Source of the DNA: Pelagicoccus sp.
Lineage (GTDB): Bacteria > Verrucomicrobiota > Verrucomicrobiia > Opitutales > Opitutaceae
Direction: 5' to 3'
Length of the DNA: 33,879 nucleotides
Assembly (NCBI GenBank): GCA_028284635.1
Contig: JANQRJ010000017.1
Coordinates: forward strand, 1 to 33,879
Shown: one piece after another, positions 1-11,462 of the stretch
Layout: each line of letters opens with the position of its first letter
How positions within the stretch are numbered: the first letter of the stretch is position 1
Notes under the pieces: model-generated
The model's database searches: none
Seen by the model: only the letters and a program-made list of their open reading frames with translations
What the model was told of the DNA's origin: nothing
Position numbers and translations under genes: made by a program

Positions 1-597
1 ATAAGCTGAATAGCTTTATGCCTTTGTCAGAGAAAGCCTTATGCCTTGCGCGTTTTTGGGAACGGAGTTGCGACAAGCGCTGCATTGCGAATGAGGGCGG
101 GCGGGAGGCGAAGCCAGACCCTCCGCGTTTAAATTTCTAACGTTGGAAAGTTAAATACAGAGGATGGGGTCGAAGAGCGCGATTCGAAGCAATGGGATTT
201 TCCGAGTGTCACCGTCCTGTTGGCAGCAACTCGGGCCTAAGGGAAAAAAAGGAACCGTTCCCCGTTCAAGGCGTTGATCCGCAAGTCATCCTGTTAGGTC
301 GCCCAGAACGGTCCCGAGATGCCCATCGACAAGCTCAGGCTCTTCGGACAGGCGCGTCCCCCGAAGAAGAAACGCTTCCCGTCACTTCAAATCGCACCCC
401 AAAGACCCCAAACAATTCCTTAGCCGACGCGCCTGAAGCGCTTCGCGGTCGACCGAATTGATTAGATGATCGAATTGATGTCTTTCGGTCAGTTTTCTAA
501 GGGTTTTCTCGTATTAAACGGCCGACATTGCGTAAAGTGTTTGTAAAATAAGTCCCATTCGTGAAACACACACCTGAAGGAAACCCGCGCGACTAAA
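1..597. other. Non-coding region upstream of the lipid synthase cluster
   Basis: No convincing gene is visible here. A short open frame at 192-461 lacks any recognisable domain and has the Arg/Pro/Glu-rich composition of chance translation. The stretch around 85-130 and the stretch around 325-350 resemble dispersed intergenic repeat fragments, but no clean inverted arms were found. The last 100 bases are more AT-rich and should hold the promoter of the synthase operon. No -35/-10 pair with correct spacing could be assigned: TAAAAT at 543-548 has no good partner. A GAAGGA run near 576 is about 18 bases from the start at 598, too far for a usual ribosome binding site. Confidence 0.5.
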
Positions 598-2202
598 ATG
601 GAACAAAACCCCGAAACAATCGAACGCCCCACGAGAATAGCGTTCGACCCACAGGGGATTATTCGACTCGCGCACGAAACGCTGCGCGAGCCCGTAGCGA
701 TCCATCGGCACCCAAAACTGACGACCTATGGGCTGGCTCGCCTCGAACCGCTCGAAGGGCAAGCGCCCGCTCGTCAAGCCATCGCCGAGCTCCCCCCATT
801 GTATCCCGAGTGGCTCGGCGATCGCTCGTTCAATGAGACCCACCATACCCGATTCGCCTACGTCGGGGGAGCCATGGCCCGCGGCATCTCGTCCGTCGAA
901 CTGGTGACAGCTCTCGCTCACGCGGGAGCGATAGGCTTCTTCGGGGCAGCCGGCACGGCCCTGAACGAACTGGAGAGCAGCCTCAAGCGCCTCTCCGCGG
1001 AACTCGATCCCCGGGGGCTGAGCTGGGGCTCCAACCTCATCCACACGCCCCACTCTCCCGAGCTCGAAGAGCAGGTTGTCGATCTGTATTTGAAACTTGG
1101 AGTCAAGCGCGTGTCCGCTTCCGCCTTCATGGACCTCTCCCCGAGCATCGTTCGCTACGCGTGCCGAGGCCTGAACCGCGATGCCAATGGTCGAGCGATC
1201 CGAAGCAACTTCGTCTTCGCCAAAATCTCGCGTCCGGAAGTCGCCAAACGCTTCCTCTCGCCACCCCCCGACGCTCTGCTGGAGAAACTGGTCGTCGAGC
1301 GAAAAATCGCTCGTGACGAGGCGGACATTGCAGCTACTCTCCCCCTATCCGAGGATGTGACCGTCGAATCCGATTCCGGTGGCCATACCGACAACCGCCC
1401 GCTCGGTTCGCTTTTTCCCGTCATCCAGGAGCTTGCCGTCGACCTGTCCGAAAAATTCGGATACGATCGCCCGATTCGCATCGGAGCCGCCGGCGGACTC
1501 GGTTCCCCACAAGGCCTGGCAGCCGCCTACGCCCTGGGAGCCGCCTACGTATTGCTCGGCTCCGTGCACCAGGCCTCTGTGGAGTCGGGGCTTGCCGAAG
1601 GCGGGAAACGCATGCTCGCCCAAGCCAACGTTTCGGACGTGGCCATGACCGCGTCCGCCGACATGTTCGAAGCGGGCGTCAAGGTGCAAGTCCTCAAGCG
1701 CGGCACACTCATGGCCAACCGAGGCAACACCCTCTATCGGATCTACAAGGAGTATCCATCGATCGAGGACATTCCCGTAAAAACCCGGCTCGAGCTCGAA
1801 CGCTCCATCTTTCAGGCTCCCTTGGACACGATCTGGAAAGAGACGAAATCCTATTTCGCTCAAAAGGATCCCCAGCAGATCGTCAAAGCCGAGGCCGACC
1901 CCAAGCGCCAAATGGCCCTCGTCTTCCGCTGGTACCTCGGCAATTCCAGCCACTGGCCTATCGCCGGAGAGGAAGGTCGGCAAGCCGACTATCAGATCTG
2001 GTGCGGCCCCGCCATGGGCGCCTTCAACAACTGGGTTCGGGGCTCCTTTCTCGAAGCCCCGGAAAACCGCCGAATCTCCCAGATCGCCCTGAACCTAATG
2101 GAAGGAGCCGCTCGCCTGACGCGTCTCCAGCAGCTACGGGCCGCCGGACTGCCGATCCCAGGTTCCGCCTTTCGATTCTCGCCCCGGCCTCTAGCCATCT
2201 AG
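598..2202 (+). CDS. pfaD: PfaD-type enoyl reductase of a polyunsaturated fatty acid/secondary lipid synthase
   Basis: The 534-residue length and sequence fit the PfaD family, FMN-dependent TIM-barrel enoyl reductases related to 2-nitropropane dioxygenase. In Pfa synthases PfaD acts in trans on the growing ACP-bound chain and reduces selected double bonds. Seen directly: an N-terminal extension of about 85 residues; a glycine-rich start of the barrel near 89-118 (YVGGAMARG, AIGFFGAAG); the probable flavin-phosphate segment with RIGAAGGLGSPQG and YVLLGSVHQ; the family hallmark KVQVLKRGTLMANRG; and a conserved C-terminal domain with YQIWCGPAMGAFNNWV. The gene comes first in the cluster, as the enoyl reductase does in myxobacterial pfa1-3 loci, whereas Gammaproteobacteria place it after pfaABC. 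Only 16 bases separate it from the ketosynthase gene. No good Shine-Dalgarno is visible at this start. Confidence 0.93.
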   Translation: MEQNPETIERPTRIAFDPQGIIRLAHETLREPVAIHRHPKLTTYGLARLEPLEGQAPARQAIAELPPLYPEWLGDRSFNETHHTRFAYVGGAMARGISSVELVTALAHAGAIGFFGAAGTALNELESSLKRLSAELDPRGLSWGSNLIHTPHSPELEEQVVDLYLKLGVKRVSASAFMDLSPSIVRYACRGLNRDANGRAIRSNFVFAKISRPEVAKRFLSPPPDALLEKLVVERKIARDEADIAATLPLSEDVTVESDSGGHTDNRPLGSLFPVIQELAVDLSEKFGYDRPIRIGAAGGLGSPQGLAAAYALGAAYVLLGSVHQASVESGLAEGGKRMLAQANVSDVAMTASADMFEAGVKVQVLKRGTLMANRGNTLYRIYKEYPSIEDIPVKTRLELERSIFQAPLDTIWKETKSYFAQKDPQQIVKAEADPKRQMALVFRWYLGNSSHWPIAGEEGRQADYQIWCGPAMGAFNNWVRGSFLEAPENRRISQIALNLMEGAARLTRLQQLRAAGLPIPGSAFRFSPRPLAI

Positions 2203-2218
2203 TCAAGCTATTGTATCC

Positions 2219-5200
2219 ATGAAACCAGCGCAAAAGAAAGCCACGCCTCAGGAGCCCATTGCCATCGTCGGCATGAGCGCCCTCTTTCCAGGTTCGGTGG
2301 ACCGCCAGCGCTTTTGGAGAAACATCGTAGCCGGCCGCGACTTCATTACCGAAGTTCCACCCAGCCACTGGCTGCCCGATGACTACTTCGACTCGGACCC
2401 TCAGGCCAAGGGGAAGGTCTACACCCGACGCGGCGCCTTCCTCCCCGAGCTGCCGCTCAACCCCATGGAGTTCGGCATCCCGCCCAACAACCTGCCCTCC
2501 ACCGACACCGTCCAACTGCTTTCCCTGCTGGGAGCCAAGCACCTGCTCGAGCAAACCCATTGCTTCGCCGCCGAAAAGGTCTCGCGCAAGCAGGTGGGCA
2601 TAATCCTCGGCGTCGCCGCCGGCACCGAACTCATCGGCCAGATGGTCAGCAAGATCCAGCGACCCAACTGGCTGGAGGCCATGCGTCGCCACGGGCTGCC
2701 CGAGACGGAAGCTCAAGCCATCTGCGACCACATCGAAGACACCTACCCAGCCTGGAACGAAGCCACCTTCCCCGGCTTGCTCTCCAACGTCGCCGCCGGC
2801 CGAGTCGCCAATCGCTTCGACCTAGGCGGAACCAACTGCGTCATCGATGCCGCCTGCGCTAGCAGTCTCGGCGCCGTATCCATGGCCGTCGACGAGCTGC
2901 GCATGGGCAAAGCCGACATGGTCATCTCCGGCGGGGCCGACGCTCTTTGCGACATCTTCATGTTCATGTGTTTCAGCAAGACGCCCGCCATCTCCTTCAC
3001 CGGAGACTGTCGGCCGTTTTCCGACAATGCCGACGGCACCATGATGGGAGAAGGCCTGGCCATGTTCGCCCTTCGACGCCTCTCCGACGCAGAACGCGAT
3101 GGAGATCGTATCTACGCTTTGATTACAGGAGTCGGCTCCTCATCCGACGGAAAGTCCAAAAGCGTCTACGCCCCCGTATCCGAGGGACAATCACGCGCCA
3201 TCAGACGAGCCTGGGACCAAGCCGGAGCATCTCCCGAGTCCATAGAGCTTATCGAAGCCCACGGCACCGCCACCAACGCGGGCGACGCCGCCGAGTTCGG
3301 CGGACTCAAGCTCGCCTTTGGCGAAACCAGCCGCAAAAAGCCCTGGTGCGCTCTCGGCTCCATCAAGTCCCAGATCGGCCACACGAAATCCTCTGCTGGG
3401 GCCGCCGGGCTTTTCAAAATTGCCATGGCGGTCAGTCAGAAGGTCTTGCCTCCGACCATCAAGGTTCAGGCCCCAAATCCCAATCTCAAGATATCCGAGA
3501 GTCCCCTCTACTTGAATACAGCCGCCCGCCCCTGGATCCACGCTTCGGATACGCCACGCAGGGCCGGACTGAGCTCCTTCGGCTTCGGCGGCAGCAACTT
3601 CCACCTCGTGGTCGAGGAGTATCAAAACGGCGAAAACCGGAAAACCTACCAGTCCGACACCCACCTCATCCTCATCGGCGCCAAAACCGCCAAGGAACTC
3701 GAGACCCAGGCGAAAAAGCTCTGCGACCTAGCCGAGAACCAAACCCTCGGAGCAGCCGGGCGAGAAAGCCAAAAGACTTTCCAAGCCAAGGCGAAACTCC
3801 GCTTGGCGGTCGTTGCAGACGACCCGGGCCAATTCGTCGATCTGCTTTCCCAAGCCCTTCCGCGCATAGGCGATCGACAGGAAGAGAGCTTTTCCATCGA
3901 TGGAAAATGTCACTTCTCCCGAGCTCCGATATCCACCGGCAAAGTAGCCTTCCTCTTTCCTGGACAAGGCAGTCAGTATCCAAACATGGGATCCGGCCTC
4001 GCTCGGGAATTCGACCAAGCGCGCCAGATCTGGGATCGATCCACCGCTTTCGAGCTGGAGGACGGAACTCGTCTGCCAGACGTCGTTTTCCCGCCACCCG
4101 CTTTCACCAAGGAAGATCGTATCGAACAATCCGATGCGCTCAAACGCACCGAGTGGACCCAGCCCGCCCTCGGCTGCGCCTCCCTCGCCCAGCTGGCGAT
4201 CCTAGACACCCTTGGCCTGAAGCCCGACGCGGTCGCAGGCCACAGCTACGGCGAGCTTGTGGCGCTGCACGCCGCCGGGGCCATCAAGACGGACGACGAG
4301 CTCCTGCTCCTGTCTCAAGCGCGCGGCCTTCGCATGGCCGAGGCCTCCACCAATATCGCCGGAGCCATGACCGCCATTCTGGCCGACTTCGAAACCGTAT
4401 CCTCGATTTTGGATACAGGATTCGAAAATATCGCGATCGCCAATCAGAATGCGCCCGAGCAGACGGTAGTGGCCGGCAGGACTGAAGACATCGCCGCCCT
4501 GGAAAAGCATCTAGCCATCGACGTCAAGCTGAGCTTCCAACGGCTCCCCGTGGCTACCGCCTTTCATTCCCCCATCGTCGCCGAAGTCTCCTCCGGATTC
4601 GCCCAAGACCTAAAACCCCTTCGCATGGGCCAGCCGAAAATTCCCGTCTACGCCAACAGCACTGCTGAGCCGTATCCAAAAACCCCTGCCGCCATCAAGA
4701 AACTGCTCGCCGAGCAACTCGCGCTCCCCGTTCGCTTTCGCGACCAGATCCAAGCCATGGCTGACGACGGCATAAGTGTTTTCGTCGAAGTCGGCGCAGG
4801 CTCTACCCTCTCGAGCCTCACCCGTAGCTGCCTAGCCGACAGCTCCAATACCGTCGTAGCTCTGGATACGAAAAACGAAACGGGCCTGCAGAGTTTCTGG
4901 CAAGGGATTGCAGCCCTTTCGCTCGCCGGTCTGCCTCTCGATTTCCCAGCATTATGGGAGCAATTCGAGCCCGACCTGGCGGACTTCTCGAAGAAGCCTC
5001 TCGGCCCAGGGGAAGTGCATTTCAGCGGGGCCAACATCGGCAAGAAGTACCCGCCCGCAGAAGGCGCGTCCGGCAAAAGCAAACCCAATCTCTCGACTCC
5101 AAAGCCCATCTCCAGTCCTTCCGCGAGCGGCCCGTCTCCTGCTCTATCCAGCAACATGAGTTCCGACAATATCCAAACTTCCGATACAGAAGCCCGACTT

Positions 5201-5830
5201 AGGTCGCTGGAGCGCATCCAGCAGAATATGATGAAGGCTCATTCCGACTTCCAAAACGCTCTCTCGCAAAGCCACCAAGCCTTCATAAGAGCTTCCGAGC
5301 AACTCATCGCCCAGCTAGGCGGTTCATCTTTCGAGCTCAGCTCGAACCCTGCGAAGCTCGAAGAGCAAAGCATGGACCCTCCTCCCATAGCGCCCATCAC
5401 CCAGTACCCCACCCCTACCACCCAACCCCCCACATCACGCCGTAGCGCTCTTCATCAGCAAGATGCGAAGGCGGAAGAACCACCTCCCCAGGACCCAACG
5501 CCCAGAACCTTCGAGCCCCGCTCGAACCCTGCGAAGCTCGCAGAGCGAAGCACGGGCAACTACAAATCCCTCATCCTTTCCACCGTCGCGGAAAAGACCG
5601 GCTACCCCGAAGAGACGATAGGCATGCAGATGGATCTCGAAGCCGAACTCGGCATCGACTCCATCAAGAAAGTCGAGATCTTCTCAGCCCTCCAGGAAAG
5701 CATCCCCGAATACGCCGACGCGGACGCATCGCAACTGGGAGAGCTCTCCACCATCGAAGACATCCTAGCCTTTACCAAAGGCATCGCCGGCAGCCAGACA
5801 CGAGAGGGGACCGAACTAAAAAACTCCTAA
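2219..5830 (+). CDS. pfaA: Pfa-type ketosynthase-acyltransferase-ACP protein
   Basis: This 1,203-residue iterative synthase subunit has three domains. The ketosynthase spans about 12-470: active Cys213 in DAACASS, His348 in EAHGTA and His388 in KSQIGHTKS, all intact, so it should condense. The acyltransferase spans about 574-880: FPGQGSQ, Ser676 in GHSYGE, His783, probably loading malonyl groups. A coiled-coil and Pro-rich linker follows at 950-1110, then one acyl carrier domain at 1114-1195 with phosphopantetheine Ser1148 in LGIDSIKK, the Pfa-type ACP signature. Gammaproteobacterial PfaA carries several tandem ACPs and continues into KR; here there is one ACP and the frame stops soon after it. 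The following KR-DH frame probably belongs to the same polypeptide through -1 frameshifting. No phosphopantetheinyl transferase is in the window. HglE-type glycolipid synthases have a similar KS-AT-ACP order and remain an alternative relative. The start has no clear Shine-Dalgarno. Confidence 0.92.
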   Translation: MKPAQKKATPQEPIAIVGMSALFPGSVDRQRFWRNIVAGRDFITEVPPSHWLPDDYFDSDPQAKGKVYTRRGAFLPELPLNPMEFGIPPNNLPSTDTVQLLSLLGAKHLLEQTHCFAAEKVSRKQVGIILGVAAGTELIGQMVSKIQRPNWLEAMRRHGLPETEAQAICDHIEDTYPAWNEATFPGLLSNVAAGRVANRFDLGGTNCVIDAACASSLGAVSMAVDELRMGKADMVISGGADALCDIFMFMCFSKTPAISFTGDCRPFSDNADGTMMGEGLAMFALRRLSDAERDGDRIYALITGVGSSSDGKSKSVYAPVSEGQSRAIRRAWDQAGASPESIELIEAHGTATNAGDAAEFGGLKLAFGETSRKKPWCALGSIKSQIGHTKSSAGAAGLFKIAMAVSQKVLPPTIKVQAPNPNLKISESPLYLNTAARPWIHASDTPRRAGLSSFGFGGSNFHLVVEEYQNGENRKTYQSDTHLILIGAKTAKELETQAKKLCDLAENQTLGAAGRESQKTFQAKAKLRLAVVADDPGQFVDLLSQALPRIGDRQEESFSIDGKCHFSRAPISTGKVAFLFPGQGSQYPNMGSGLAREFDQARQIWDRSTAFELEDGTRLPDVVFPPPAFTKEDRIEQSDALKRTEWTQPALGCASLAQLAILDTLGLKPDAVAGHSYGELVALHAAGAIKTDDELLLLSQARGLRMAEASTNIAGAMTAILADFETVSSILDTGFENIAIANQNAPEQTVVAGRTEDIAALEKHLAIDVKLSFQRLPVATAFHSPIVAEVSSGFAQDLKPLRMGQPKIPVYANSTAEPYPKTPAAIKKLLAEQLALPVRFRDQIQAMADDGISVFVEVGAGSTLSSLTRSCLADSSNTVVALDTKNETGLQSFWQGIAALSLAGLPLDFPALWEQFEPDLADFSKKPLGPGEVHFSGANIGKKYPPAEGASGKSKPNLSTPKPISSPSASGPSPALSSNMSSDNIQTSDTEARLRSLERIQQNMMKAHSDFQNALSQSHQAFIRASEQLIAQLGGSSFELSSNPAKLEEQSMDPPPIAPITQYPTPTTQPPTSRRSALHQQDAKAEEPPPQDPTPRTFEPRSNPAKLAERSTGNYKSLILSTVAEKTGYPEETIGMQMDLEAELGIDSIKKVEIFSALQESIPEYADADASQLGELSTIEDILAFTKGIAGSQTREGTELKNS
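5330..5555 (+). repeat. Two in-frame copies of a 46-bp repeat in the AT-ACP linker
   Basis: The copies lie at 5330-5375 and 5510-5555, exactly 180 bp apart, and differ at about 5 of 46 positions. The central CTCGAACCCTGCGAAGCTCG is identical. Each copy opens with a small hairpin, TTCGAGC-NNN-GCTCGAA, whose three-base loop differs between copies. Both are read in the same frame and give related peptides (SNPAKLEEQS and SNPAKLAERS) in a low-complexity linker just before the ACP. This looks like a short mobile or duplicated palindromic element tolerated in a flexible linker. Confidence 0.75.
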
Positions 5831-5863
5831 GCGGCGCCGCTCCCCCGCCCACAGCGACGCCGC
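5802..5863 (+). promoter_or_regulatory. Candidate programmed -1 ribosomal frameshift signal
   Basis: A AAA AAC at 5818-5824 is in the exact phase X XXY YYZ of the KS-AT-ACP frame (codons CTA AAA AAC), two codons before its stop at 5828-5830. After a -1 slip the next codon is 5824-5826, in the frame that stays open to 8226 and encodes KR-DH. Upstream, GAGAGGGGA at 5802-5810 is SD-like. Its GAGG ends 10 bases before the heptamer, the spacing used in Escherichia coli dnaX. Downstream, after a six-base spacer, GCGGCG (5831-5836) can pair with CGCCGC (5858-5863). All three parts of a bacterial -1 signal are therefore present. The alternative is a real or sequencing frameshift at the A6 run. Confidence 0.6.
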
Positions 5864-5913
5864 GAACTTCCACCGCTCTCTACGAACTCGCGCTCCAGCC
5901 CGCTCCAATCTCG

Positions 5914-8226
5914 TTGACCGCTCTCGCCGATCTTTCCCAGCTCGGCGCACTCGCGATCATCCCCGACAGCAAAGGGATCGCCCGAGCCCTCGCCGCCAAG
6001 CTCCGCAAGGCGGGCATTCCCGCTCGGATCCATCAGAAGCCGCCAGCAGACAGTCGAGCGATTCTCTTTCTGAAATCACTGTATCCAAAGTCTCTTGACG
6101 AATCCATATCCAACAACCAGCACGCCTTTAGACTCCTCAAGTCCATGGCAACGGAGGCGACCGAGGAGCTCCGCCTCTTTGTCGCCGTCCAGGACACTGG
6201 AGGCAGCTTCGGACTCGACGGCCAATCCACTCCAAACGCCTGGACCGGCGGCCTTGCCGGACTAGCAAAAACCGCCGCACGCGAATGGCCAAACGCCGCT
6301 GTAAAATCCATCGATCTAGAAACCGGCGATCTCTCCGCGGAACAGCTGGCGGACCGCCTGTATCAGGAAATCCTTACCGGCGGGACTCAGGTCGAAATCG
6401 GCCTGAAAGCGAATGGCGAACGCATCGCCCTCGATCTAGCGCCCGTCACCAACGTAGCGCGGAGCTTCAGCCCGCGACCGCGAAGAATAGATCCTGCAAC
6501 GCGGTCGCGGGCTGAAGCTCCGCGCTACGGCATTCAGCAAGGCGACACCATCGTCGTCAGTGGCGGAGCCCGCGGTGTCACCGCCAAATGCCTCGTCGAA
6601 CTCGCCAAACGCAAGCCCCTGAAGTTCGCCCTGCTCGGTCGTTCCGCCCCTCCGGAAACGGAAGCCCCAGAGTTCGCCGCCTGCCAAAGCGACGCCGAAC
6701 TCAAGGCGAAGATCCTGCAACTCAAACGCCAGGCTGGAATCACTCCCACTCCGCTCGAGCTGAACAAGGAAGCCTCCAGCATCATCGCCGCTCGCGAAAT
6801 CCGAACCACCTTGGAAACCCTCCAGTCGCTCGGCTCCGAGGCCCTCTACCTGCAAGCCGATGTGGTCGACGCAGCATCCGTGCAGGCAGCTCTCGCCCAG
6901 GCTCGCGAAGCTTTCGGCCCGATCCACGGCTTCGTTCACGCAGCTGGCGTCCTAGCCGACAAGCCGATCCGAGACAAGACGGACGAGCAGTTCGACCGCG
7001 TATTCAAAGTAAAAGCGCATGGCCTGCGAAATCTGCTCGAGGCCACCAGCTCCGACTCTCTCAAGCTCATCTGCTGTTTTTCCTCAGTCGCCGCCAGGGT
7101 CGGCAACCCAGGACAAGCCGACTACGCCTGCGGCAACGAGATACTGAACAAGGTCTGTCAGGCAGAAGCCCGCCGACGTGGCTCCTCCTGCCTGGTGCGG
7201 TCCATCAACTGGGGGCCCTGGGACGGCGGCATGGTCAAGCCCGCTCTCGCCAAGCATTTCGCCAAGGCAGGTGTATCGCTTATTCCCATACAAGAAGGAG
7301 CGGAGTGTTTCGCCGACATCGCGCTAGGCAAGCGTGGATCAGGTGTGGAGCTAATCGCCGGGGCCAATCTTCCCTCAGCCGACGAGGGAGAGCAGGGTCG
7401 AACGAAACGGCGAGCCCTGCATCTGCATGTATCCAATTTTCCCTACCTCGTCGACCACGCCATGCATGGCTATCCCACCGCCCCCATGGTCCTCATCGCC
7501 GAACTCGGGATGCGCATCGCCAGGGAGCAGCAACCCGGCAAGCCAAGCTACCAATGTCGCGACGTGACCGCTCTCAAAGGCATGGGAACGGCAAAACTCG
7601 CCCGTCATGGCCGTTGGTTCTCCACCGAGGCGACCACGGAAGCGGGTGGAACGCGTATTCAGATCAAGCTGCAAACCCCCGAGCAATTGGTTACGCTCAA
7701 CTCCAGCTTCGTCCCCAGCGCATACGAAGCCCCCGAGCGAGTACAAGCCCCCAGCATAAAGGGCGAGCCCTGGAATCTCGACCTCGTCGCTGCCTACGCT
7801 GGCCCGCTGTTCAATCGAGGCGACTTTATGGTGCTCCAGAAAACGAATACGATTTCAAAGAGCGGTTGCGTCTCCGAACTGGTTATCAAAGAGGACCTGC
7901 CCAGTCCCGCATCCGACTGGATGAGCCACCTCTGGCTGCTCGACGGCATCCTGCAAACCGCTACCGAATGGAAGCGTCACCATACCGACCACCACGCTAT
8001 CCCCTTCCGTATTGGCCGCGTAACCTCCCTACCCGGCTGGGAGCGTTTGACTCGAGCCTCCTGCGTGATGGAAATCGTCAAGGACACTGCCACGAAGACC
8101 ACCTGGAACGCCTGGCTCGTCTCCCCCAATGGCGAAACCGCAGCAACGCTCGAAGAACTGGAGATGCTGCCCATGCCGCACGACAAGAATATCTGGAACA
8201 CGCAAAAGGAGATCCTCGACCTGTGA
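5914..8226 (+). CDS. Pfa-type ketoreductase-dehydratase, probably the -1 frame extension of the KS-AT-ACP protein
   Basis: The only in-frame start is TTG at 5914 (770 residues), with no Shine-Dalgarno. The frame is open back past 5824, and residues read from there include ELALQPAPI, like the linker before Pfa/PKS ketoreductases. Production from the -1 frameshift signal at 5818 would give a fused protein of about 2,002 residues. Counting from 5914: a structural KR subdomain (10-205); a Rossmann KR with nucleotide-binding SGGARGVT (216-223), VHAAG (341-345), Ser390/391 and catalytic Tyr404 in DYACGNE; then a double-hotdog dehydratase (about 500-770) with His515 in HAMHGYPTAP, matching HxxxGxxxxP, and Asp677 in DGILQ. 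All catalytic residues are present. KS-MAT-ACP-KR-DH is the order of myxobacterial Pfa2. A palindromic element is translated at residues 180-206. Confidence 0.85.
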   Translation: MTALADLSQLGALAIIPDSKGIARALAAKLRKAGIPARIHQKPPADSRAILFLKSLYPKSLDESISNNQHAFRLLKSMATEATEELRLFVAVQDTGGSFGLDGQSTPNAWTGGLAGLAKTAAREWPNAAVKSIDLETGDLSAEQLADRLYQEILTGGTQVEIGLKANGERIALDLAPVTNVARSFSPRPRRIDPATRSRAEAPRYGIQQGDTIVVSGGARGVTAKCLVELAKRKPLKFALLGRSAPPETEAPEFAACQSDAELKAKILQLKRQAGITPTPLELNKEASSIIAAREIRTTLETLQSLGSEALYLQADVVDAASVQAALAQAREAFGPIHGFVHAAGVLADKPIRDKTDEQFDRVFKVKAHGLRNLLEATSSDSLKLICCFSSVAARVGNPGQADYACGNEILNKVCQAEARRRGSSCLVRSINWGPWDGGMVKPALAKHFAKAGVSLIPIQEGAECFADIALGKRGSGVELIAGANLPSADEGEQGRTKRRALHLHVSNFPYLVDHAMHGYPTAPMVLIAELGMRIAREQQPGKPSYQCRDVTALKGMGTAKLARHGRWFSTEATTEAGGTRIQIKLQTPEQLVTLNSSFVPSAYEAPERVQAPSIKGEPWNLDLVAAYAGPLFNRGDFMVLQKTNTISKSGCVSELVIKEDLPSPASDWMSHLWLLDGILQTATEWKRHHTDHHAIPFRIGRVTSLPGWERLTRASCVMEIVKDTATKTTWNAWLVSPNGETAATLEELEMLPMPHDKNIWNTQKEILDL
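6453..6529. repeat. Palindromic element A, in frame inside the ketoreductase gene
   Basis: Two perfectly complementary 30-bp arms (6453-6482 and 6500-6529) flank a 17-base loop. The arm outer end reads CGTAGCGCGGAGCTTCAGCC. The same arm recurs between genes at 29257-29410 and as a single arm at 15906-15922. Here it is translated as about 26 Arg/Ser/Pro-rich residues immediately before the KR nucleotide-binding loop. The loop bases GATCCTGCAA recur in the element at 16128-16202, so these are members of one family. Confidence 0.93.
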
Positions 8227-11200
8227 ACCAGCGCCCCCACGTCCTACCTTTGCCGCCAGCTTTGGAAACGACAAGCAAGCTGCCTGGGAACGCGGGCAGC
8301 TCGTCCGCAACAACATCGGACACTGAAATGCGGGCGAGCCGCCCGCGTTCCCAGGATACCCTCATCCTCGCGGCCCACGCCGCTCTCACCCGTGCCCACC
8401 AGGAGCATGTACAAGCTTTGCAAGAAGCCCAAAGCGCCTTCGATTCCTTTAACCTCTCCCTCCAGCAAACCGCCCTGGAGCTGGCAACCGGCTCTCCCCA
8501 CGCAGCCGAAGTCGATAGACCCTTGATTTCAACCACCTCTCCAAAGTCTATCGACTTCGGCTACAAGTCTGAAGAACCTATCGCCCCCGCATTTCCCAAA
8601 ACCGCCATTGACGCCTTCCGTCACGGAGATCCCGTGGCGTGCTTCGGCGAGGAACTGGCCGACGCGATCTGCCACACCCGCACGCCTCGCCTCTACGCGC
8701 CCGAGAGCCACGCGCTCGCCCAAGTTCTTTCCATCGATCCCCAAGGCGGCAATCATAGACTCGGATCTATCGCTATCGAGATCGCGGCAAACCAGGACCC
8801 GGAAACCGCCGCCCTGCAAGCCCTCTCCCTCTACCTCGCCTACCAAAAGGAAACTATCCGCCGAGACGGTTGGCTCTTCGAAAAACTGCTAGAGCGAGAC
8901 AGCGATACCCAGAGTATCAAAGGTAGGGACCGATCGCCGAGCGGTCCGCAGAGTACAGATACAACAAAGGGATCTTGCAACGCGGACCGCTCGGCGATCG
9001 GTCCCTACCAAAACGAAAGCGCATCTCTCCCCAGATCAGAAAACCCCCAACAAGCCCACATCCACATCACCTCTCTCTACAAGGACGAGGATCAGCCCTG
9101 CATCACCGCCCGAGTCTCCGTGCCCCAGGTTGGCATCGATTTCCCAACAGGCCTCAAGCTCGCCGTCGCCTATCCGCTCACCTCGTTCCCCGAGCTCGTA
9201 TCCAATCTGCCAGACACGCGACCGGTTGCCAGTCTGCAAGGCCTGACCTTCGATCAGGCCTCGACCATCGCCTGCTCCCTCGGCGAGCCTGCAAAAGCCT
9301 TCGGCCCCGCCTTCATCCACTTCAAGAACGGTCGATCGCCACGTTTGCCCTCCCCTCCCTACAACTGCTGCACCCGTATCACAAAACTGGATGCGAACTT
9401 CGCCTCCATGGAAACCGGATCTTCCGTCGAGTTCCTCTTCGATATCGCCAGCGACCCCTGGTACTTCCAGGAAAACGACCAGACCACCATGCCTATCGCG
9501 ATCCTGCTGGAAGCCGCTTTGCAGCCCTGCGGCTGGCTCAGCACCTTCCTCCTAGAGAAGGAGGCCGCCACCTGGGAACCCCTGTTTCGCAACCTCGACG
9601 GCAACTGCCGTTTTCCTCGACCCGTCACGCCCAACGACGAAACCATCGTCACGCGAATCACCCAGTCCATGATCGCCAAGGTCAGCGAGCAGGTGATCGT
9701 GAAGTGCGAGATCGAATGCCGCTCGAAAGGCGAAATCGTCATGCAAGGCGATTCCACCTTCGGCTTCTTCACCCAAGCGGCTCTGGACAAACAGGGCGGC
9801 TTCCCGCCCAGCGGGAAGGAAATCGAGATTCTAAACGCCCCAGGCAAGGTCGACTACCTGCTCGCGGATCGAGAAAGCGACCTGCGCCAACGATTCGGCT
9901 ACAAGCTACCGGTGGACAAATTGCGACGCATACACCGTATCACTGATTTCGATACGAAAGGAGGAAAATTCGGCAAAGGCTACATGCGCGGCGAAAATCC
10001 AGTCTCCCGAGCGGACTGGGTTTTCAAAGCCCACTTCTATCGCGACCCCGTGCAGCCAGGATCGATTGGCATCGAAGCCCTCTGCCAGCTTCTCAAGCTC
10101 TATGCCCTCGAGCTATCTCCTCCCCAGACAGGCAGCGCGCCCGTATTCGAGACCCCGCTGCCGGACCTCGAGGTGAAATGGGCTTACCGCGGCCAGGTCC
10201 TGCCTCACAACAAGATGGCCGTCTTCGAAGCGCACATCGAGTCAGTCGAGCAGAGCGAGCGCGGTCTCGCTGTGATTGCCGAAGGCTCGCTTTGGGCCGA
10301 CGGCGTCAAACTCTACAGCGTGAACAACCTCAGTCTCAGGCTTCGCTTCGAAGCGCTGCCAGACGAAAAGCGAAGAAAAGCCTTCGCTAGGCAACACGGC
10401 CTTTCCGAAGCCGGTCTGCGTTGGCAACCGATTCTTCGCCAGTGGGACAACCTTCCCTTCAACCCCACGGCAAAAGGCCAGACGCAAAGCCTCGATGCCG
10501 ATGCCCTGCGACGGGCTATGAATCGGCGCTTTGGATACAAGACAAGCGCTCTTCGGGACGTTATGACCGGCTTGATCGCCCGCTTTGTCGATGCGGTGAT
10601 CATCGAATCGCCGGAAGCCTTCGAAAGGACGAAAGGCAAGCCCGCTCTCTATCTGGCCAATCACCAGATCGGCATCGAGTCCGTATTGTTCAACATCTTC
10701 GCCAGCATTCTTGGCAAGACTGACTGTCGAATCATTTCCAAGGAAGAGCACCGTCAATCCACTTTCGGAGCTCTTAATAAACTCATCGAAAGCGAAATCG
10801 GATTCGATTCCCTCTTCTACTTCGACCGGGCCAATCAACAGGCCATGTTCGATATTCTGGATACGTACAAGATCGAGACCTCCACCCGACCCTACTCTCT
10901 CTTCGCTCACGCCAGTGGCACGCGTTCCCTACAGAAGCTCAATCCCCTGAAAACAGTCAGCTCCGCCCTCACCGATCTGGCGATCAAGCGAAAACTGCCG
11001 ATCATACCCGTCAGATTCGGCCACGGACTGCCAAGCAAACCAGTACCCCAACGCCTGGAATTTCCCTACCAATACGGAAAGCAACGCTACTACGTCGGCA
11101 CACCCATCGCCTCGGACGAACTTGCTAAACTCAACCTCAAGCAGCGCGCCGAACGCATCTGCGCCGCCGTCAACGAACTCGGCCCCAAGCCAGCAAAGGA

Positions 11201-11462
11201 ATCCCTCATTCCCACAGAGCAACCCTTCCGCAAGACCGTGGAAAGAATCCGTGAAACCCTGAACCTCGCCGAACTGCCCACCACCTTCATCGCCACCCTA
11301 TTCGCCTACGATCAACCCTGCGACGAGTCGAAGAAGCTGATTTCCTGGATGCAAAGCGGTATGCCGAAAAAACGATTCGCCGAATTCAACCCCGAGACCC
11401 AATCTCTGATAAAGCTGCTTTCTTTAACCGCGAATGGACGCTATTGCACACGAATACAATAG
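8223..11462 (+). CDS. Pfa-type dehydratase-dehydratase-acyltransferase (DH-DH-AGPAT) protein
   Basis: GTG at 8223 overlaps the KR-DH stop (GTGA), with AAGGAG at 8206-8211, 11 bases upstream; this gives 1,079 residues. A helical N-terminal segment (about 46-95) precedes two FabA-like hotdog domains as in the C-terminal half of PfaC. DH1 is around 411-440 (DPWYF...MPIAILLEAALQP), with Asn418 where FabA has its catalytic His. DH2 has His604 in HFYRDPVQPG, and Glu618 where FabA has Asp84. A PlsC/AGPAT-like acyltransferase occupies about 770-1040: NHQIGIE (813-819), then SGTRS (898-902) where EGTRS is usual, then IIPVRFGHG. The layout equals myxobacterial Pfa3 minus its N-terminal KS-CLF-AT. The acyltransferase could release the finished chain onto a glycerolipid acceptor. 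Palindromic elements are translated at residues 21-45 and 234-263, and the last residues come from another repeat. Confidence 0.9.
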   Translation: MNQRPHVLPLPPALETTSKLPGNAGSSSATTSDTEMRASRPRSQDTLILAAHAALTRAHQEHVQALQEAQSAFDSFNLSLQQTALELATGSPHAAEVDRPLISTTSPKSIDFGYKSEEPIAPAFPKTAIDAFRHGDPVACFGEELADAICHTRTPRLYAPESHALAQVLSIDPQGGNHRLGSIAIEIAANQDPETAALQALSLYLAYQKETIRRDGWLFEKLLERDSDTQSIKGRDRSPSGPQSTDTTKGSCNADRSAIGPYQNESASLPRSENPQQAHIHITSLYKDEDQPCITARVSVPQVGIDFPTGLKLAVAYPLTSFPELVSNLPDTRPVASLQGLTFDQASTIACSLGEPAKAFGPAFIHFKNGRSPRLPSPPYNCCTRITKLDANFASMETGSSVEFLFDIASDPWYFQENDQTTMPIAILLEAALQPCGWLSTFLLEKEAATWEPLFRNLDGNCRFPRPVTPNDETIVTRITQSMIAKVSEQVIVKCEIECRSKGEIVMQGDSTFGFFTQAALDKQGGFPPSGKEIEILNAPGKVDYLLADRESDLRQRFGYKLPVDKLRRIHRITDFDTKGGKFGKGYMRGENPVSRADWVFKAHFYRDPVQPGSIGIEALCQLLKLYALELSPPQTGSAPVFETPLPDLEVKWAYRGQVLPHNKMAVFEAHIESVEQSERGLAVIAEGSLWADGVKLYSVNNLSLRLRFEALPDEKRRKAFARQHGLSEAGLRWQPILRQWDNLPFNPTAKGQTQSLDADALRRAMNRRFGYKTSALRDVMTGLIARFVDAVIIESPEAFERTKGKPALYLANHQIGIESVLFNIFASILGKTDCRIISKEEHRQSTFGALNKLIESEIGFDSLFYFDRANQQAMFDILDTYKIETSTRPYSLFAHASGTRSLQKLNPLKTVSSALTDLAIKRKLPIIPVRFGHGLPSKPVPQRLEFPYQYGKQRYYVGTPIASDELAKLNLKQRAERICAAVNELGPKPAKESLIPTEQPFRKTVERIRETLNLAELPTTFIATLFAYDQPCDESKKLISWMQSGMPKKRFAEFNPETQSLIKLLSLTANGRYCTRIQ
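8283..8355. repeat. Palindromic element B, at the N-terminus of the DH-DH-AGPAT gene
   Basis: Arms of 27 bp (8283-8309 and 8329-8355) match at 25 positions around a 19-base loop. The outer end reads CCTGGGAACGCGGGC. The element is translated as residues 21-45 between the GTG start and the helical segment. An ATG inside the right arm (8328-8330) could serve as an alternative start, which would mean that the element supplies the start codon. Confidence 0.88.
8922..9009. repeat. Palindromic element C, in frame inside the DH-DH-AGPAT gene
   Basis: Two 28-bp arms (8922-8949 and 8982-9009) are perfectly complementary around a 32-base loop. The outer end reads GGTAGGGACCGATCGCCGAG. The same arm lies between genes at 16128-16202. 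It is translated as residues 234-263, a Ser/Asp/Gly-rich stretch between the N-terminal region and the first hotdog domain. No stop codon arises and the frame is kept. Confidence 0.93.

Follow-up and report, generated by a model that had tools for sequence, protein, structure and literature searches.

We propose, at about even confidence, that low-level -1 frameshifting in a Pfa-type synthase gene of Pelagicoccus sp. yields the full-length synthase beside free KS-AT-ACP. The gene lies in a window of 33,879 nt, the whole stretch of DNA analysed (contig JANQRJ010000017.1 of GCA_028284635.1; all coordinates are those of the window on its + strand), and it is divided between two reading frames that meet at an in-phase slippery heptamer, A AAA AAC. 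Judged by homology to relatives, both frames derive from a single ancestral protein, each encoding one half of it. An earlier note on this DNA had put forward a programmed frameshift fusing KS-AT-ACP to KR-DH; the anatomy of such a cassette is borne out below, whereas conservation of the site is not.

One synthase in two reading frames

Sequence analysis establishes the frames and their phase, and shows each half to be homologous to one-frame genes of relatives. The 0 frame (2219-5830, +) encodes KS-AT-ACP, as assigned from the open reading frame and its Pfam domains, and its length of 1203 aa is that given in the earlier note. At its 3' end the 0-frame codons read GAA CTA AAA AAC TCC TAA, with the TAA stop codon at 5828-5830 (+), two codons past the codon pair of AAC. 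The -1 frame (5824-8226, +) comprises 800 codons up to its stop codon at 8224-8226, and 926 codons when counted from stop to stop. It holds a KR domain recognized by Pfam and a DH-like end with weak blastp similarity to the DH region of relatives; one relative similar to this end, L112, has Pfam DH domains in the corresponding part. A search of solved structures returned KR and FabG folds, with the best stretches among the matches listed running from residue 303 or later. The -1 frame is indeed open to 8226 as the note had it, and the TTG at 5914-5916 (+) is its sole ATG, GTG or TTG between the heptamer and KR. Codon usage cannot place the frame switch, its signal over 5791-5880 being too faint in all frames.

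The two frames together remain open over ~2,000 codons, spanning three in-frame copies of a dispersed repeat. A palindromic copy lies inside the KR half (6453-6529, +), and two further copies lie in the linker before ACP (5330-5375 and 5509-5562, +). The copy in the KR half is REP-like and reminiscent of the Rickettsia palindromic elements; against three relatives in the alignment, it lengthens the protein by about 20 residues. In a blastn search of 434 kb of the genome with 6424-6560 as query, 47 of the 50 matches, with self-matches and double hits on the two strands of one place included, fell outside predicted genes of at least 150 aa.

Upstream in the operon lies a PfaD-like enoyl reductase (598-2202, +; Pfam NMO and FabD_helical_ins), showing 45-53% identity to genes adjoining pfaA in relatives. 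Over both frames the order KS-AT-ACP(n)-KR is homologous to PfaA-like genes, the homology being to relatives' genes that stand beside PfaD-like genes and the Pfa name resting on domain order. Tandem ACPs were not found in the window, where Pfam detects one ACP; one was also detected in L112, and two to four in many other relatives. Single-ACP clusters are not excluded in the portion of Shulse and Allen 2011 consulted (PMC3098273). The next gene (8223-11462, +) contains FabA-like regions and a PlsC-type acyltransferase, and its GTG overlaps the KR-DH stop as GTGA. This gene looks PfaC-like without KS-CLF. Since no companion KS-CLF was found in it, the locus departs from a complete Pfa cluster. 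Elsewhere in the genome assembly, which is 96% complete, the KS-AT-ACP query (E 1e-10) matched a 2139-codon PKS-like frame, three short KS-like frames and one AT-like frame. In L063, no PfaC-like frame was found within 918 bases downstream of its pfaA.

After a first pass over relatives (57), the KR-DH query at E 1e-30 matched none of the 7 other members of the genus. Besides its own genome, it matched 6/252 genomes of the family, 2/372 of the order, 9/384 of the class and 10/387 of the phylum, the last three sets being overlapping samples, and another 3/3 and 3/6 genomes around G912. The matches in relatives show identities of 31-42%, and one contig scan of named genomes gave two distant planctomycete loci. 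Of the 22 loci compared first, 18 carry KS, AT, ACP and KR in a single frame, and two that are cut by the contig start (L041 and L073) have ACP and KR in one frame. Among the loci added, L112 is complete and in one frame, and L113, L114 and L115 are cut, with ACP and KR in one frame. The two remaining loci are not orthologues and were left out of the count: L049 has another architecture, with ACPs and KR in different ORFs and with KS, AT and KR sharing a 3349-codon frame, and L050 gave no KR match. Therefore, with ACP and KR sharing a frame in 24/24 orthologous loci, 19 of which also hold KS-AT, the gene was ancestrally fused and the copy in the window is split. In the fragmentary genome of L113, the KS-like regions of the G1014 PfaC-like gene appear in two overlapping frames (3-4888, minus strand), possibly through a frameshift or an error.

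In a tree of the KR region (25 rows), the window joins L063 (99/96; L063 is flagged for odd composition) inside a set of seven (100/99). The split itself is seen in one genome only, and an in-phase A AAA AAC between ACP and KR occurs in 0/24 orthologous loci. The alignment with relatives that the earlier note had called for thus shows neither the heptamer nor the frame offset to be conserved. The note had also held that one-frame relatives without the heptamer would refute its claim; this is largely the picture obtained, with slip-prone runs recurring in a few lineages (see below). Because even the nearest relatives are remote, the site may have arisen recently.

The heptamer and its surroundings

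The heptamer A AAA AAC occupies 5818-5824 (+) in X XXY YYZ phase ahead of the 0-frame stop, exactly where the earlier note had located it, and the -1 frame is open beyond it. In the 232 predicted genes of 434 kb of the genome, an in-phase A AAA AAC occurs 8 times in 103,706 codon pairs, the synthase site included. An in-phase A6N heptamer within the last 15 codons occurs in three of these genes, again including the synthase, where the -1 frame stays open for 800 codons, compared with 3 and 57 in the other two. The heptamer by itself is weak evidence, because an A run that loses one base will, without any selection, end up as an in-phase heptamer in ~1/3 of phases.

A hairpin is predicted at 5831-5863 (+), six bases past the heptamer. 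The spacing is that of the stem described in the earlier note; the predicted structure is larger than the 6-bp stem described there, comprising 6 bp, a 1x1 internal loop and 4 bp. RNA structure 4-10 nt after the heptamer is common, not universal, in prokaryotes, according to the spacing rule in the part of PMC4066793 consulted, and the predicted hairpin falls in that range, without being distinctive in longer context. The 40-nt stretch has a predicted stability of -17.2 kcal/mol (z -2.8), equalled by 3/200 shuffles; over a 76-nt stretch z shrinks to -0.86 and 38/200 shuffles are equally stable. At the same offset, an equally stable 40-mer follows 1.17% of in-phase sites in a random set of 6000; within the same gene the share is 1.4% (1983 in-phase sites). 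With 60-mers the figure rises to 28%, so the hairpin is unremarkable at that length. None of the 11 other in-phase A6C or A6G heptamers with enough sequence is followed by a comparable hairpin, the strongest reaching -11.1. The idea that the hairpin is a piece of a dispersed repeat was rejected, as its sole match in 434 kb is itself. A genome search with 5500-6200 gave matches elsewhere only via the repeat at about 5509-5563.

Upstream of the heptamer lies an SD-like GAGGGGA (5804-5810, +) of doubtful role, whose GAGG at 5804-5807 the earlier note had likened to the element of dnaX. The motif is present, ten bases upstream; its weight is less than the note gave it, and we regard it as weak evidence, because the starts in this genome have no SD enrichment. 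Such motifs were found in 15/160 upstream regions, compared with 13% of random 16-mers, with a flat profile, in a survey that took the first start codon of each ORF as the start, which blurs the signal. GAGG, GGAG or AGGA stands at the same distance from 6366 of 101,618 in-phase sites (6.3%). At most positions upstream of the sampled ATG starts, C outnumbers every other base.

The same host appears to use this heptamer elsewhere. A transposase pair (L116) on contig C67 at about 1300-2490, minus strand, carries HTH_Tnp_1 and rve domains and is read as IS3-type by these domains; its two frames overlap in -1 at an in-phase A AAA AAC with AAGGAG upstream. Pieces of 80-98 bases that are 100% identical to this pair end the contigs C38, C101 and C96, suggesting a multicopy, recently mobile element, and therefore a working shift on A AAA AAC in the same host. 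In addition, contig ends inside transposon pieces point to a short-read assembly.

A frame model with strict starts placed the switch at 5824-5826 among 46 events in 434 kb, whereas a looser version gave 8 events and did not call the synthase gene. The model has little power, because its looser version missed the gene and its strict version gave 45 others. The use of these events as an assembly-error rate was dropped; neither model yields such a rate, few events having been inspected singly (five of the looser model, the pair at the right end of the window and C11:130138). The last of these, where G GGT TTC stands at the end of a gene, was rejected as a candidate, being two genes of which the second has its own ATG.

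Homopolymer runs between ACP and KR in relatives

In 20 relatives with a GC of 0.55 or more, all three A/T runs of at least 7 sit in the ACP-KR interval: an A10 in L112, a T7 in L066 and a T7 in L071. The interval makes up 5.4% of codons (p 1.6e-4 for runs of at least 7, with the run-length cut-offs picked post hoc and the window itself not counted). Against linker codons only, of which the interval holds 2106/7436 (28%), p is about 0.02. The enrichment fades with shorter runs, to 3/18 for runs of at least 6 (p 0.07) and 6/73 for runs of at least 5 (p 0.20). Four genes of lower GC, in which A runs are many, were omitted from this test. Runs of at least 7 number five in L063, none in L070 and five in L078, and L069 has three A7 and one C7. 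One of the runs in L078 falls between ACP and KR; L063, the sister of the window in the tree, has no run of at least 7 in its ACP-KR linker.

The A10 of L112, a one-frame gene of the same family, reads CAA AAA AAA AAG TTA and lies at position 3257 (T10 on +), as the sole A/T run of at least 8 in 175.5 kb of that genome. Beyond the run, a stop codon is reached after 7 codons in the -1 frame and after 1 codon in the +1 frame. No hairpin was found close after it, 97.6% of sites folding as well. In the KR tree L112 groups with L062, L114 and L115, all without the run, so the runs of L112 and of the window look independent. In L066, of the same class and another family, T TTT TTT stands in phase 31 codons past the ACP match and is followed by an immediate -1 stop; the hairpin after it is equalled by 7.3% of the sites in that gene. 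The long product is that of frame 0 in all three run-bearing relatives, and in these two slippage would truncate the protein after ACP. The third, L071, does not fit simply, because its -1 frame stays open for 428 codons.

A wider reading, which we offer as speculative and consider rather doubtful, is that slip-prone homopolymers at the ACP-KR boundary form a recurrent recoding switch of Pfa-type synthases that arose independently in several lineages. Such a switch would make the KR-DH half optional and set the amount of free KS-AT-ACP per full-length chain. Its default would differ, being full length in L112 (A10) and L066 (T7), and truncated in the window (A6C with hairpin).

The proposed frameshifting, its alternatives and known systems

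In the proposed scheme, an ancestral one-frame KS-AT-ACP-KR-DH gene would have been split by a frame change in the flexible ACP-KR linker. Most ribosomes would terminate at 5828-5830 and release KS-AT-ACP, and a minority, aided by the hairpin at 5831-5863, would slip one base back on A AAA AAC and read on to 8226 to give a full-length protein of about 2,000 residues. Slippage would also bring ribosomes to the GTGA at which the next gene overlaps. We infer that slippage on the heptamer takes place; the transposase with the same in-phase heptamer in this genome and the recurrent runs in the ACP-KR interval of relatives favour it. The rate is probably low and the fusion a minor product, because in E. 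coli A AAA AAC acts with low efficiency, according to the portions of PMC4066793 and PMC5009743 consulted. The short product may be useful and not waste; a use for KS-AT-ACP is plausible because Type D clusters are likewise divided between ACP and KR, according to the consulted part of PMC3098273.

A plain indel is a possibility that we take seriously, though we hold it to fall short of probable. It would be a recent mutation in the A run, with loss of KR-DH, or an assembly error in a gene that is normally fused, and the heptamer would be a by-product. The split is a singleton against 24/24 one-frame orthologous loci, homopolymers are where indels fall, and singletons of this kind are mostly errors or indels in the account of Antonov et al. 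(PMC3711429, consulted part). The companion gene without KS-CLF and the repeats inside the gene could fit decay. However, an indel does not predict a hairpin at the right spacing (about 1% of sites) or the position between domains, nor that, the change of frame aside, both halves lack internal stops for about 2,000 codons; and in a short-read assembly, as the contig ends suggest this to be, an error in A6 would be unusual.

We consider it unlikely that KS-AT-ACP and KR-DH are products of a split gene acting in trans, with KR-DH starting at TTG 5914, or at another unusual start, by re-initiation after 5830. The TTG lies 83 bases past the stop, and separate genes in Type D (between ACP and KR) and a split pfaA in Type H are described in the consulted part of PMC3098273. 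Against this, no ATG or GTG occurs in the -1 frame between the heptamer and KR, and similarity to L063 and other relatives begins upstream of the TTG: LYELALQPAP of the -1 frame aligns with TYELGVQASP of L063, in a stretch that the earlier note had read as a pre-KR linker. A separate start at TTG 5914 is disfavoured, since the homology of the KR frame begins about 5881 and a start at 5914 would cut into it. Less likely still is slippage of RNA polymerase at the A run, or phase variation by replication slippage, so that transcripts or cells carrying the fusion would be mixed with others lacking it. The A10 of L112 is long enough to suggest either process; in the window, the A6 run is short for both, and the hairpin would have no role.

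If ribosomal frameshifting does operate here, it would let translation adjust the ratio of ACP to KR from one gene. Domain ratios matter in iterative lipid synthases; PUFA yield goes up with ACP number according to the part of PMC5067506 consulted. If the split is merely an indel, it warns that slippery sites can be mimicked by indels in homopolymers. That one gene may give both a short and a long enzyme is plausible and unusual, though not proven. In the open-access literature, searched mostly by title and the start of the abstract, we found no paper describing frameshifting in Pfa or PKS genes.

In domain order (KS-AT-ACP-KR) and in the homology of both halves, the gene resembles PfaA of PUFA and other secondary lipid synthases, from which it differs by its one ACP, its split frame and a companion gene without KS-CLF. 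With dnaX of E. coli (A AAA AAG) it shares an A-rich in-phase heptamer, a predicted downstream hairpin, an upstream SD-like element, here of doubtful role, and two products that would differ by C-terminal domains. In dnaX, where a hairpin and an SD-like element also accompany two products, the 0 frame gives the long product and the shift truncates it. In the window, in contrast, the 0 frame is short, the shift would extend it, and the heptamer ends in C; L112, with an in-phase A AAA AAG within its A10, would have the dnaX orientation. As in Type D and Type H pfa clusters, pfaA is divided, and in Type D the division likewise falls between the ACPs and KR; unlike here, those are described as separate genes, and the word 'frameshift' is absent from the part of PMC3098273 consulted. 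The orientation matches that of IS1/IS3-family transposases, in which a short 0-frame product is extended into a fusion by way of the -1 frame, and A AAA AAC is among the heptamers they use (PMC4066793, consulted part). Unlike those elements, the gene encodes a biosynthetic enzyme, with no OrfA-like role known for its short product; an overlap of the IS type is nevertheless present in the same genome.
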